This document shows positions 48,631 to 53,430 of a stretch of DNA of 64,000 bases, piece by piece. The notes below the pieces were generated by a model. It saw nothing but the letters and a program-made list of their open reading frames with translations, was not told the DNA's origin and searched no databases. The first letter of the stretch is position 1, and the number at the start of each line of letters is the position of its first letter. The DNA lies in contig NZ_JAANNO010000006.1 in the NCBI RefSeq assembly GCF_011250645.1, positions 156,235-220,234 on the forward strand. The letters are read 5' to 3'. The stretch comes from Motilibacter aurantiacus. GTDB lineage: Bacteria; Actinomycetota; Actinomycetes; Motilibacterales; Motilibacteraceae. The translations under genes and the position numbers were made by a program.

Positions 48631-49638
48631 GTGTCCGTCACTGCCGTCGTCCTTCCGCCCCCCTCGACCGCCACCACCTCCCGGCCCCCACTGCTGATCG
48701 TGGGTCACGGGACGCGCGACGCCGCCGGGGTCGAGCAGTTCACGGGCTTCACCCGCCGGGTCGCCGCCCTCATGGCCGGACGCGGCGTCGCGGTCGGTGG
48801 CGGGCTGATCGAGCTCGCGCCTCCCCCGCTGATGGACGCCGTGGCCGGCCTGGTCGGGGCCGGCCACCGCCATCTCGTCGCCGTGCCGCTGATGCTCGTC
48901 GCCGCGGGCCACGCCAAGGGCGACATCCCCGCGGCGCTCGACCGGGAGCGGGAGCGCCACCCCGCGATGACGTACGCGTACGGCCGCCCGCTCGCCGCCG
49001 ACCCGCGCATCCTCGACGCGCTGGACGAGCGGCTGTCGGCGGTGCTCGACGACGCCGAGCGGGCCGGGACGCACGTCGTCCTCGTCGGGCGTGGGTCGAC
49101 CGACCCGGACGCCAACGCCGAGGTCTTCCGGGCCGGCCGGCTCTTCGAGGAGGGGCGCGGCCTGGCGGGCGTCGAGTCCTCGTTCATCAGCCTGGCCAGG
49201 CCCGGCGTCCCGGCCGCGCTCGAGCGCTGCCGCATGCTCGGCGCCGCGCGGGTCGTGGTGCTGCCGTACTTCATGTTCGCCGGCGTGCTGCCCGACCGGA
49301 TCGTCGCGCAGGCGCAGGCCTGGGCGGCCGAGCACCCGGAGGTCGACGTCCGCTGCGCGGGCCTGATCGGGGACTGCGACCAGCTCGCCGAGGTGGTGAT
49401 CTCCCGGTACGAGGAGGCGGTCGCCGGCGGCATCAGGAACAACTGCGACACCTGCATGTACCGCATCGCGATGCCGGGGCGCGAGGCCAAGGTCGGCCTC
49501 CCGCAGGCCCCGCACGATCACCCGGACGACCCGGCGCACCCGCACGGCCATTCCCACGACCACGGGCACCCGCACGGCCATTCCCACGACCACGGGCACC
49601 CCCACCCGCACGGGCATCCCCACGCGCACGCCCACTGA
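48631..49638 (+). CDS. cbiX: CbiX-type sirohydrochlorin chelatase with histidine-rich tail
   Basis: Inserts cobalt (cobalamin) or iron (siroheme) into sirohydrochlorin. It has 335 residues: a class II chelatase repeated twice (HGTRDAAGVEQF ... VPLMLVAAGHAKGDIP, then VLVGRGSTDPDAN ... VVLPYFMFAGVLPDRI). A CDTCMYR motif with two cysteines follows, and the last 40 residues are histidine-rich (HGHSHDHGHPHGH in part), a metal-storage tail common in cobaltochelatases. GTG 48631 lies 37 bases after the palindrome. cobK and cobF at the end of the window suggest cobalamin; cysG at the start suggests siroheme. The metal is undecided. Confidence 0.92.
   Translation: MSVTAVVLPPPSTATTSRPPLLIVGHGTRDAAGVEQFTGFTRRVAALMAGRGVAVGGGLIELAPPPLMDAVAGLVGAGHRHLVAVPLMLVAAGHAKGDIPAALDRERERHPAMTYAYGRPLAADPRILDALDERLSAVLDDAERAGTHVVLVGRGSTDPDANAEVFRAGRLFEEGRGLAGVESSFISLARPGVPAALERCRMLGAARVVVLPYFMFAGVLPDRIVAQAQAWAAEHPEVDVRCAGLIGDCDQLAEVVISRYEEAVAGGIRNNCDTCMYRIAMPGREAKVGLPQAPHDHPDDPAHPHGHSHDHGHPHGHSHDHGHPHPHGHPHAHAH
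49541..49600 (+). repeat. Two exact 30-bp direct repeats in the CbiX histidine tail
   Basis: The unit 49541-49570 recurs at 49571-49600 without change and encodes ten residues of His/Gly/Asp/Pro. Perfect identity suggests a recent slip duplication that lengthened the metal-binding tail. Confidence 0.85.
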
Positions 49639-49977: not shown

Positions 49978-50874
49978 CTAGGCCTGCCCCAGCTTCGCCG
50001 GCGCCAGGACGATGTCGACCCGCGTGACGCGCCCGTCGACGACGGTCAGCGCGGCGACCGAGCTCAGCCGCCCCTCCGCGTAGAACGCGAGCCCCGGCCC
50101 GCCGTTGACGAGAATCGCCTCGACGCGGTCGCCTGCCCCCCACTTGCGCTTCTGCGCGACCCCCAGCAGGAAGCGGGCCACCCGCTCGGCGCCGGTGACC
50201 GGCCGGCGGGCCGCGTTGACGACCCCGCCGCCGTCGCTCGTGAGGACGACGTCGGGGTCGAGCAGGGACACCAGCCCGGCGAGGTCGCCGTTGCCCGCCG
50301 CCTCGAGGAAGGCCGACACCGTCTTCCCGTGTGCGCCGGCGGGCACGTCCATCCGAGGCGCCCCCGCCTTGACGTGCGCCCGCGCCCGCACGGCGAGCTG
50401 CCGGACGGCCGCCGGGGTCCGGCCGACCACGTCGGCCACCTCCGACAGCGGCATGCCGAACACCTCGTGCAGCACCCAGACCACGCGCTCGGCCGGCGAC
50501 AGCGTCTCCAGCACGACCATGAGCGCGTAGCTCACCGAGTCGTCGAGCGTGACGCGGTCCGCGGGGTCACCGACGCCCGACGACGGCTGTGCAGGCGCGT
50601 CGAACAGGGGCTCGGGCAGCCACGGCCCGACGTACGCCTCGCGCTGGACCCGCGCCGACCGCAGCACGTCGAGCGCCCGGCGCGACACGGCCACCACCGA
50701 CCACGCCTCGACGTCGCGCACCGCCTCGTCGGCATCGGCGGCCACGAGCCTCAGCCAGCAGTCCGAGACGACGTCCTCGGCCTCCGCCACCGTGCCGACG
50801 ACGGCGTACGCGATGCCGACCAGCCGGGAGCGGATGCGCGTGTAGTCCGCGGCCAGCTCCTCGGGCCTCGTCAC
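49978..50874 (-). CDS. sigJ: ECF41-group sigma factor (SigJ-like) with SnoaL-like C-terminus
   Basis: A 298-residue extracytoplasmic-function sigma factor. Sigma region 2 is AYAVVGTVAEAEDVVSDCWLRL and region 4 is LSPAERVVWVLHEVFGMPLSEVADVVGRTPAAVRQL. The C-terminal 120 residues form a SnoaL-like domain with TSDGGGVVNAARRPV, the DGGG motif known to control ECF41 activity in place of an anti-sigma factor. GTG 50874 overlaps the stop of the NmrA-like oxidoreductase, the usual ECF41 partner. Matching promoters (TGTCACA-N16-CGTC) lie before that operon and face the divergent gene, so autoregulation is expected. Confidence 0.93.
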   Translation of the reverse strand: MTRPEELAADYTRIRSRLVGIAYAVVGTVAEAEDVVSDCWLRLVAADADEAVRDVEAWSVVAVSRRALDVLRSARVQREAYVGPWLPEPLFDAPAQPSSGVGDPADRVTLDDSVSYALMVVLETLSPAERVVWVLHEVFGMPLSEVADVVGRTPAAVRQLAVRARAHVKAGAPRMDVPAGAHGKTVSAFLEAAGNGDLAGLVSLLDPDVVLTSDGGGVVNAARRPVTGAERVARFLLGVAQKRKWGAGDRVEAILVNGGPGLAFYAEGRLSSVAALTVVDGRVTRVDIVLAPAKLGQA

Positions 50875-51623
50875 GGGCGGCCACCGCTCGTGGCGAGGAG
50901 GTACTCGTCGTACGTCTGCTTCGCGTGCACGAAGTCACCTTCGGGCAACAGGCCACCGCCCGACAAGGCCCTCCCGGTGGCACCGGGGACGGGGACGGGG
51001 ATGACGAGCCGGCGCGAGCCCTGCGCACTCAGCAGCCGGCGCACCATCTCCGGCATCATCAGCTGCTCCGGCCCGGCGATGGGCGTCGCCATCCCCTGCG
51101 GCTCCCGCTGCACGAGCCGGACGAGCTCGGCGGCGACCTCGCGGGCGGCGACCGGTCGGCTGAGCATCCGGGGCACGGGGACGAGCGGCCCGCGCACCCC
51201 GCTGAGCAACTGCCCGGCGAACTCGTGGAACTGCGTGGCACGCAGCACGGTCCAGGGGCCCCCGCCGGCCGCGAGCAGCTCCTCCTGCCGGAGCTTGCCG
51301 GCGTAGTAGCCGAGGCCGACCCGGTCGACGCCCACCACCGAGAGCGCGACGAGGTGGCGGACGCCGGCGCGGGCCGACGCGTCGAGCAGGTGGCTGGTCG
51401 CCGTCCCGAAGTAGCCCAGCGACCGGGCCCGGCTCGTCGTCGTCACGTTGCCCACGTCGACCACGGCGTCTGCCCCGTCCAGCGCCGCGTCCAGGCCGCG
51501 CCCCGTCGTCAGGTCGACCCCGTGCGACCGGGAGAGCACGACAGGCGTGCAACCACTGCTGCGTAGTTCCTGAATCACGAGTCGTCCCATGAGGCCCGTC
51601 CCGCCCGCCACCGCGATCGTCAT
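50871..51623 (-). CDS. NmrA-like NAD(P)-binding oxidoreductase, ECF41 partner
   Basis: A 250-residue atypical short-chain dehydrogenase. Rossmann motif MTIAVAGGTGLMGRLVIQEL, then VVDVGNVTTTSRARSLGYF and HLVALSVVGVDRVGLGYYAGKL, with the active-site Tyr-x3-Lys-like YYAGK. ECF41 sigma factors commonly control such oxidoreductases. Start: ATG 51623 is chosen because the ECF41 promoter (51644-51670, minus strand) would place the transcript start near 51636, making the longest start at 51671 impossible; ATG 51636 is also possible. The stop overlaps the sigma gene by four bases. Substrate unknown. Confidence 0.88.
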   Translation of the reverse strand: MTIAVAGGTGLMGRLVIQELRSSGCTPVVLSRSHGVDLTTGRGLDAALDGADAVVDVGNVTTTSRARSLGYFGTATSHLLDASARAGVRHLVALSVVGVDRVGLGYYAGKLRQEELLAAGGGPWTVLRATQFHEFAGQLLSGVRGPLVPVPRMLSRPVAAREVAAELVRLVQREPQGMATPIAGPEQLMMPEMVRRLLSAQGSRRLVIPVPVPGATGRALSGGGLLPEGDFVHAKQTYDEYLLATSGGRP

Positions 51624-51643
51624 CCCGTTCGTCATGCCGGATG

Positions 51644-51670
51644 GACGGGCGAGGGCGCGCAGGTGTGACA
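51644..51670 (-). promoter_or_regulatory. ECF41 promoter of the oxidoreductase-sigma operon
   Basis: Read on the minus strand: TGTCACA (51670-51664), 16 bases, CGTC (51647-51644). This agrees with the published ECF41 promoter (TGTCACA and CGTC separated by about 14-16 bases). The transcript would begin close to the start codon. Confidence 0.85.
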
Positions 51671-51690
51671 TCAGGAGGGCGAGGCGGCCA

Positions 51691-51717
51691 TGTCACACGC
51701 CGCGGCAGTGTCCCGTC
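51691..51717 (+). promoter_or_regulatory. ECF41 promoter facing the NADH dehydrogenase gene
   Basis: TGTCACA (51691-51697), 16 bases, CGTC (51714-51717): the same elements and spacing as the opposite promoter, 20 bp away. The gene starting at 51770 has GGAGGG before the ATG. Inferred: the sigma factor also controls that gene. Confidence 0.82.
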
Positions 51718-51769
51718 CTCGTGGTGAAGGCGCCCATCAGGGACGCCGGAAGCCCGCCAGGAGGGCACC

Positions 51770-53430
51770 ATGAGCAACGGTCGGAGGCGCATCGTCATCG
51801 TCGGCGGAGGGTTCGCGGGGTTCTACGCCCTGCGCCACCTGCAGCGGCACCTGCCGCGCGGGCGGGCCGAGCTGGTCCTCGTCAACCCGACGGACTACCT
51901 GCTCTACAGCCCGCTCCTACCGGAGGTGGCCACCGGGTCGTCGAGGCACGGCACATCGCTGTCTCGCTGCGCCGCGCGCTGCCGAAGGCCCGGCTCGTCC
52001 TCGGCCGCGTGTCCGCCGGGGACCTGTCCGGCCGGACCGTCACGGTCCGCTCGATCGACGCGAACGGCGAGGAGCGGGACGAGGCCCTGCACTGGGACCG
52101 ACTGGCACTCACGCCCGGGTCGGTCACCCGGCAGTTCGCGATCCCCGGCGCGCCGGACCACGCCCGCGGGCTCAAGACGCTCGTCGAGGCGGTCTACCTG
52201 CGTGACCACCTGCTGCGCCAGCTCGACCTGGCCGATGCGCTGCCCGACACGGCCGAGGGCCGCGCCGAGCGGGCCGCACTGCTCACGGTGGTGGCGGTCG
52301 GCGCCGGCTACACCGGCACCGAGGTCGTCGCGCGGACCCAGCGCTGGCTGCGCCGGATCGAGCGGCGGTGGAGCCGGACGAACGCGCGCGACGTGCGGTG
52401 GGTGCTCGTGGACGTCTCGCCGACGGTCCTGCCCGAGCTCGGACCGAGCCTGGGCCGGCGGGCGCTGCGCCTGCTGGAGAAGCGCGGCGTCGAGGTGCGG
52501 CTGGGCGTCTCGGTCGCCGCGGGCGACGAGCGGGCCGTGCGGCTGACCGACGGCACCGCGGTCGCCACGCGCACCCTGCTCTGGGGAGCCGGCGTCGCCC
52601 CCAGCCCGTTGATCGAGAGCCTCGGCCTGCCCACCCGCCGCGGGCGCCTCGTCGTCGAGCCGGACCTGTCGGTCCCAGGCCTGGCCGGTGTCTGGGCCGC
52701 GGGCGACGCGGCCGCGGTCCCCGACCTGACCGCCGCGAAGCTCGACGGGGAGCGTCCGGCGACCCCGCCCACCGCCCAGCACGCGCAGCGCCAGGGCACC
52801 GCGCTCGGCCGGAACATCGCGGCGAGCCTCGGGGTCGGCACGCCCCGGGCGTACAAGCACAAGGACCTCGGCCTCGTCACGGACCTCGGCGGCTGGGACG
52901 CCGTGGCCAAGCCGCTCGGCGTGCCGCTCACCGGGCCGCTCGCCAAGGTGGTCACGCGGGCCTACCACCTGTACGCCCTCCCGGCCATGGCGAACCGGCT
53001 GCGCGTCGCTGCCGACTGGCTGTGGCAGAGCGTGCTCCCGCCGGAGTCGACGCAGCTGTGGGTCGTCCGGTCGGAGGACGCGCGGCTGGCGGTCGCCCAG
53101 GGGACCGGGATCTACGGGCCGCCGGCGCACGCCGGGCGGCGGACGAGGCGGCCCGGGCACCGGGCCTTCAGCCGCTACAGCCGGACGAGGGGGCCGGTGT
53201 CCCTGGTCAGGGCGAGCAGCAGCTCGCGGGCGCGGCGCAGCTGGTCGACGTCGTACCCGCCCTCGTACAGCCCGGCGACCGCGGTGCCGTCGGCCGCCCG
53301 CACGACGAGGAAGGTGCGCTGGGGGTCCAGCCCGTCGGCCGACAGGGCGGCGTCCCACCGCTGCTGGTCCCGGCGCATCGCCTCGGTCACGCCGGGGACG
53401 GAGGACAGCGCGGCGACGAGCAGGACGTAG
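51770..53430 (+). pseudogene. ndh: Type II NADH dehydrogenase, frameshifted
   Basis: Membrane-surface FAD enzyme that passes electrons from NADH to quinone. From ATG 51770 the first 55 residues (RRRIVIVGGGFAGFYALRHL, then DYLLYSPLLPEVATG) are intact. At the GGG of 51935-51937 one base is missing: the frame continues to a stop at 52546, while the rest (EARHIAVSLRRALPKARL onwards, with TVVAVGAGYTGTEVVA and GVWAAGDAAAVPD) is in another frame. The downstream part runs without stop to 53430, over most of the converging tetR gene, beyond the expected end near 53130, so the native stop also seems lost. Either a decaying gene or an assembly error in a G-run. Its ECF41 promoter remains intact. Confidence 0.75.

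Follow-up and report, generated by a model that had tools for sequence, protein, structure and literature searches.

Divergent ECF41-type promoters between a sigma factor operon and a type-II NADH dehydrogenase gene in Motilibacter

In Motilibacter aurantiacus, two divergent promoters of the ECF41 type, P1 and P2, lie between the operon of an ECF41-group (SigJ-like) sigma factor and ndh, which encodes an accessory type-II NADH dehydrogenase (NDH-2). Judging from the sequence, this one sigma factor probably uses both of them. A wider proposition appears almost evenly balanced to us, with doubt slightly prevailing: that ECF41-type promoters have repeatedly captured respiratory, quinone-linked enzymes, namely NDH-2, in Motilibacter and in a separate event in Pseudonocardia, as well as an accessory complex III cytochrome b, and that in the case of the Motilibacter ndh they stand where sister genera have an RsrR-type [2Fe-2S] regulator. 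If true, ECF41 factors would serve a respiratory or redox regulon that extends beyond a self-loop on a single operon, and ndh would exemplify a gene that answers to a repressor-type regulator in one lineage but to a sigma factor in another. We know of no signal or purpose that has been assigned to the widespread ECF41 sigma factors. A conserved second target with a respiratory function, whose counterpart in sister genera adjoins the gene of an apparent redox regulator, would provide a testable hint, the NADH/quinone state.

The sigma factor operon and ndh

The window analysed here is a stretch of 64,000 nucleotides of the M. aurantiacus genome; the features of the region are listed in the table. 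P1 and P2 correspond exactly to the ECF41 promoter as defined by Wecke et al. (TGTCACA, 16 +/- 1 bases, CGTC), a consensus that 5' RACE and reporter fusions had established for two other members of the group (PMC3426412). The two -35 elements are separated by 20 bp. The initial annotation had described two facing ECF41 promoters with a 16-base spacer, 20 bp apart; sites and spacing proved exact, but the orientation is divergent, back to back. P1 reads into the gene of an NAD(P)H-binding protein and then into the sigma gene, while P2 reads into ndh, where transcription would start near position 51724. A simple scan of positions 51550-51800 revealed no sigma-70-like promoter.

Features of the region between the sigma factor operon and ndh (positions in the window)
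Feature	Position	Strand	Details
ECF41/SigJ-type sigma factor, 298 aa	49978..50874	-	NCBIfam SigJ, 303.7 bits (cut-off 271)
NAD(P)H-binding, epimerase-type protein, 254 aa (COE partner of ECF41)	50871..51635	-	Pfam NAD_binding_10 5e-11, Epimerase 1e-4
P1, ECF41-type promoter	51644..51670	-	-35 TGTCACA 51670-51664, 16-base spacer, -10 CGTC 51647-51644; exact consensus; 51670-51644 reads TGTCACACCTGCGCGCCCTCGCCCGTC
P2, ECF41-type promoter	51691..51717	+	-35 TGTCACA 51691-51697, 16-base spacer, -10 CGTC 51714-51717; exact consensus; 51691-51717 reads TGTCACACGCCGCGGCAGTGTCCCGTC
Ribosome-binding site of ndh, GGAGGG	51760..51765	+	Sequence; 4 bases upstream of ATG
ndh, accessory type-II NADH dehydrogenase (NDH-2)	51770..53430	+	Pfam Pyr_redox_2; 3' limit taken from the second frame's stop

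The assignment of the minus-strand site to the head of the sigma operon held. The NAD(P)H-binding gene, which starts either at ATG 51635, leaving the transcript nearly leaderless, or at ATG 51623, precedes the sigma gene, whose GTG start overlaps the preceding stop by 4 bases. The NAD(P)H-binding protein is 80% identical to its counterpart in Motilibacter deserti and 48-56% identical to proteins encoded next to ECF41 sigmas of other actinobacteria. In the sigma factor, Pfam detected r2, r4_2 and SnoaL_2, the last being a weak match (9e-5) under its cut-off, and the linker between sigma2 and sigma4 contains the WLPEP motif defined in PMC3426412 (YVGPWLPEP in the translation). Together, sigma2/sigma4 with a C-terminal SnoaL_2-like extension, the WLPEP linker and the COE neighbour place the protein in the ECF41 group. 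It shares its NCBIfam subfamily and domain order with SigJ of M. tuberculosis, an ECF41 factor. According to Hu et al. 2004 (as cited in PMC8103513), a sigJ mutant is sensitive to hydrogen peroxide; the literature searched yielded no link between SigJ and NDH-2. A Pfam analysis of flanking genes revealed no gene for an anti-sigma factor among those examined. One gene on the plus strand nearby (48631-49638) encodes a CbiX-type sirohydrochlorin chelatase-like protein with a long histidine-rich repeat tail (HPHGHSHDHGHPHGHSHDHGHPHPHGHPHAHAH), possibly a metal store.

The proposal that the divergent gene encodes an NADH dehydrogenase was supported by its intact M. deserti homologue, which matched solved NDH-2 structures down to 2e-41 (9mqy, residues 3-415). 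The M. deserti protein combines full-length similarity with FAD- and NAD(P)H-binding Rossmann folds and an AQ..Q stretch; the latter is part of a quinone-site stretch, PPTAQ..Q.G, that aligned with YjlD. Two further NDH-2-like genes, 37-40% identical, occur in the genome of the window, and we therefore regard the copy at 51770 as accessory. In this assembly, a one-base frameshift near 51934, overlooked in the initial annotation, splits the FAD-binding N-terminus of ndh from the remainder, and so the window strain may make no ndh product. Thus, P2 might be a genuine promoter in front of a pseudogene, a reading to which the presence of the two other NDH-2-like genes lends some weight but which we consider rather doubtful. 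Apart from the frameshift, the reading frame is uninterrupted, and comparison of the window with M. deserti gave a dN/dS of 0.17 for ndh, close to the 0.13 of the sigma gene, indicating either a recent lesion or an error of sequencing or assembly; moreover, relatives carry intact copies.

Two separate promoters and their use

Within the window, TGTCACA-N-CGTC with spacers of 14-18 bases was matched only by P1 and P2, with 0.24 matches expected. In the whole genome of 4.59 Mb (spacers 15-17), four exact sites including P1 and P2 were obtained, compared to three for the reversed pattern as a control. A single site could therefore be due to chance. The third site (C2:258451-258477) is located about 65 bp upstream of an ammonium-transporter-like gene and the fourth (C7:250283) lies within a gene on the opposite strand; since the reversed control is equally frequent, both are probably chance matches and were not taken as real promoters. 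The same counts would allow P1 to be the only promoter, the match on the ndh side being fortuitous and ndh being transcribed by another holoenzyme, and this would also fit the ndh orthologues outside the genus, which lack an ECF41 site (see below). We consider this improbable, as the site on the ndh side is positioned 20 bp from P1, is appropriately spaced with respect to ndh, and is preserved in M. deserti far better than its spacer.

Pairs of sites behaved differently from single ones. The twin pattern GACG-N15-17-TGTGACA-N0-30-TGTCACA-N16-CGTC was matched in 9 of 395 genomes of the Actinomycetes, the genome of the window counted, and in 20 of 329 genomes from one other family, whereas its reversed control was matched in none of either set. 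Given these controls, we rejected a chance pairing of P1 and P2 as improbable.

Within the genus, the comparison comprised one relative, M. deserti (locus L025), in which the gene layout is the same and both motifs occur (5172+ and 5127-). The outcome that the initial annotation had named as speaking against its proposal, relatives that keep only the minus-strand promoter, was thus not observed in M. deserti. In each promoter, M. deserti retains all 11 bases of the elements; spacer bases counted by eye are identical at only 7 of 16 positions on the ndh side and at 9 of 16 on the other side. The gap between the -35 elements is 44 bp in M. deserti versus 20 bp in the window, with each CGTC still at a distance of 16 bases. 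The preservation of both sites while the spacers diverged and the gap changed indicates two separate promoters and not one palindromic operator. An operator for a transcription factor had to be considered since TGTGACAT-N18-ATGTCACA (51664-51697) forms a perfect 8-base inverted repeat, for which 0.02 occurrences are expected in the window. However, a dimer operator would keep the spacing of its arms, and the gap between the sites of other twin loci varies as well, ranging between a few and about 30 bp. With the distance between the arms being variable, we rejected the palindromic operator as highly improbable.

The motif was further counted from known sigma positions. Of the loci that carry the nearest relatives of the sigma factor (about 49-67% identical), 40 were scored, and TGTCAC[AG]-N15-17-CGTC was present at a distance of up to 1 kb from the sigma gene in 36 of them, compared to one of 40 for the reversed control. 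At more distant sigma loci the motif was found in 7 of 40, or in 19 of 40 if TGTC was allowed, and the reversed control in none. On the basis of these sequence comparisons, the ECF41 motif travels with this sigma clade.

By analogy with the ECF41 factors that have been studied, the sigma factor would be activated through a conformational change of its SnoaL_2-like C-terminal domain. From P1, RNA polymerase carrying it would then read leftward through the NAD(P)H-binding gene into the gene of the sigma factor itself, resulting in positive feedback, and from P2 it would read rightward, by which ndh would be co-induced. The ndh product, where intact, is predicted to transfer electrons from NADH to quinone without proton pumping. 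Polymerases at P1 and P2, with 20 bp separating the -35 elements, may occupy the region simultaneously or compete with each other. Another sigma homologue of the SnoaL_2 type (32% identical) might share the sites.

This arrangement resembles the ECF41 loci described previously (PMC3426412; >COE> >ECF> and <ECF< >COE>) with respect to TGTCACA-N16-CGTC, an epimerase- or Pyr_redox-type partner, and WLPEP together with a C-terminal extension. Loci of the type <ECF< >COE> (55, 15%) often have the motif before both genes of the divergent pair, and Pyr_redox/_2 flavoproteins were counted among the ECF41 partners (PMC3426412). Partners of this kind and divergent double promoters were thus already known. 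The initial annotation had taken a second, divergent target as a widening of the regulon; NDH-2 does stand beside an epimerase-type operon, but the claim was overstated, as a divergent oxidoreductase falls within the known range. The Motilibacter locus differs in that its sigma factor has two classes of partner, a cotranscribed epimerase-type gene and a divergent NDH-2. Wecke et al. concluded that an ECF41 factor generally controls one gene or operon, and observed no activation at motif matches away from the ECF41 locus (PMC3426412). Wider ECF41 regulons are nevertheless already on record, since a factor of Azospirillum is described as controlling motility and lateral flagella (Dubey 2020, as cited in PMC8999054). 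We regard as new the addition of NDH-2 to an epimerase-sigma operon, the change in control of ndh between lineages, and the motif upstream of an accessory cytochrome b.

Control of ndh and of cytochrome b in other lineages

Outside Motilibacter, none of 28 loci with ndh orthologues has an ECF41 motif upstream of the gene, and we therefore rejected the notion of an upstream ECF41 site as a common property of ndh genes. The closest ndh genes, 77% identical, occur in two genomes of sister genera (G001 and G004), and in the phylogenetic tree the Motilibacter ndh groups with them (100/99). In these genomes, ndh is situated downstream of a gene for an NmrA-like NAD(P)H-binding protein, and an Rrf2 gene is oriented divergently (L015 919-3443, L016 41-2757). 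The RsrR-like Rrf2 protein carries E8, H12, C90 and C110, residue numbers which we take to be those of the RsrR ligands as well. Cys, Glu and His are given as ligands of the [2Fe-2S] cluster in S. venezuelae RsrR (Volbeda 2019, as cited in PMC9338935). The intergenic region between the Rrf2 gene and the NmrA-like/ndh genes contains two CGGACA-N5-TGTCCG repeats, which resemble the operator sequences shown for rsrR/sven6562 in PMC5015018. With their RsrR-like gene and these repeats, the sister-genus loci are thus similar to rsrR/sven6562 of Streptomyces venezuelae (PMC5015018). In contrast, neither Motilibacter genome has a match to the sister-genus Rrf2 protein at E<=1e-15, and ECF41 promoters precede ndh instead; conversely, no ECF41 sigma was detected at E<=1e-60 in either of the Rrf2-bearing sister genomes. 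The likeliest reading of these sequences is that the control of ndh differs by lineage, exerted by an RsrR-type regulator in one and by ECF41 in the other; the change may have gone in either direction.

A second NDH-2 gene with an ECF41 motif was found in Pseudonocardia alaniniphila (L024), where a second, divergent motif is adjacent. In the tree, this gene is placed in a different clade, among genes without the motif. As it is separated from the Motilibacter ndh, NDH-2 has been captured by ECF41 motifs at least twice independently.

Another respiratory gene emerged from the twin-pattern search. In one genus (g79), a stand-alone, QcrB-like cytochrome b gene is divergent from a gene that encodes a conserved, approximately 150-aa protein (L200-L206 and L213-L221; for example, L204 6451-8674). 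All nine members of this cytochrome b clade have the motif upstream, including one that was found independently of the pattern, and the divergent second motif occurs in all eight loci with enough upstream sequence. Among other QcrB paralogues, only one of 21 had a match, which was weaker. ECF41-like sigma genes are located about 0.6-4 kb away in three of seven cytochrome b loci (L201, L204 and L206), and at L204 an NDH-like/sigma operon with a motif of its own adjoins the cytochrome b locus. This case independently supports respiratory targets, the motif alone pointing to a dependence on ECF41. The partner protein of about 150 aa gave no Pfam match; an assignment as YceI-like was discarded, since Pfam lent it no support at E values of up to 5.

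The initial annotation had suggested a redox or membrane signal for the sigma factor. A redox theme is plausible in view of the Rrf2 gene beside the sister-genus ndh and of the motifs upstream of cytochrome b, both of which support, without proving, a role connected to redox or quinone. A signal tied to redox, that is, to the NADH/quinone state, is accordingly no more firmly held than as a tentative suggestion, one we put somewhat short of even.

Other partners were observed as well. Shorter flavoproteins of about 390 aa, which form a separate clade, are the ordinary oxidoreductase neighbours of ECF41 sigmas. Among the twin-pattern loci, the commonest divergent partners of the sigma gene are MMPL transporters (11 loci: L033-L038 and L195-L199), a partner type outside the set of carboxymuconolactone decarboxylases, oxidoreductases and epimerases; in those loci examined closely, the twin promoters are 6-24 bp apart.
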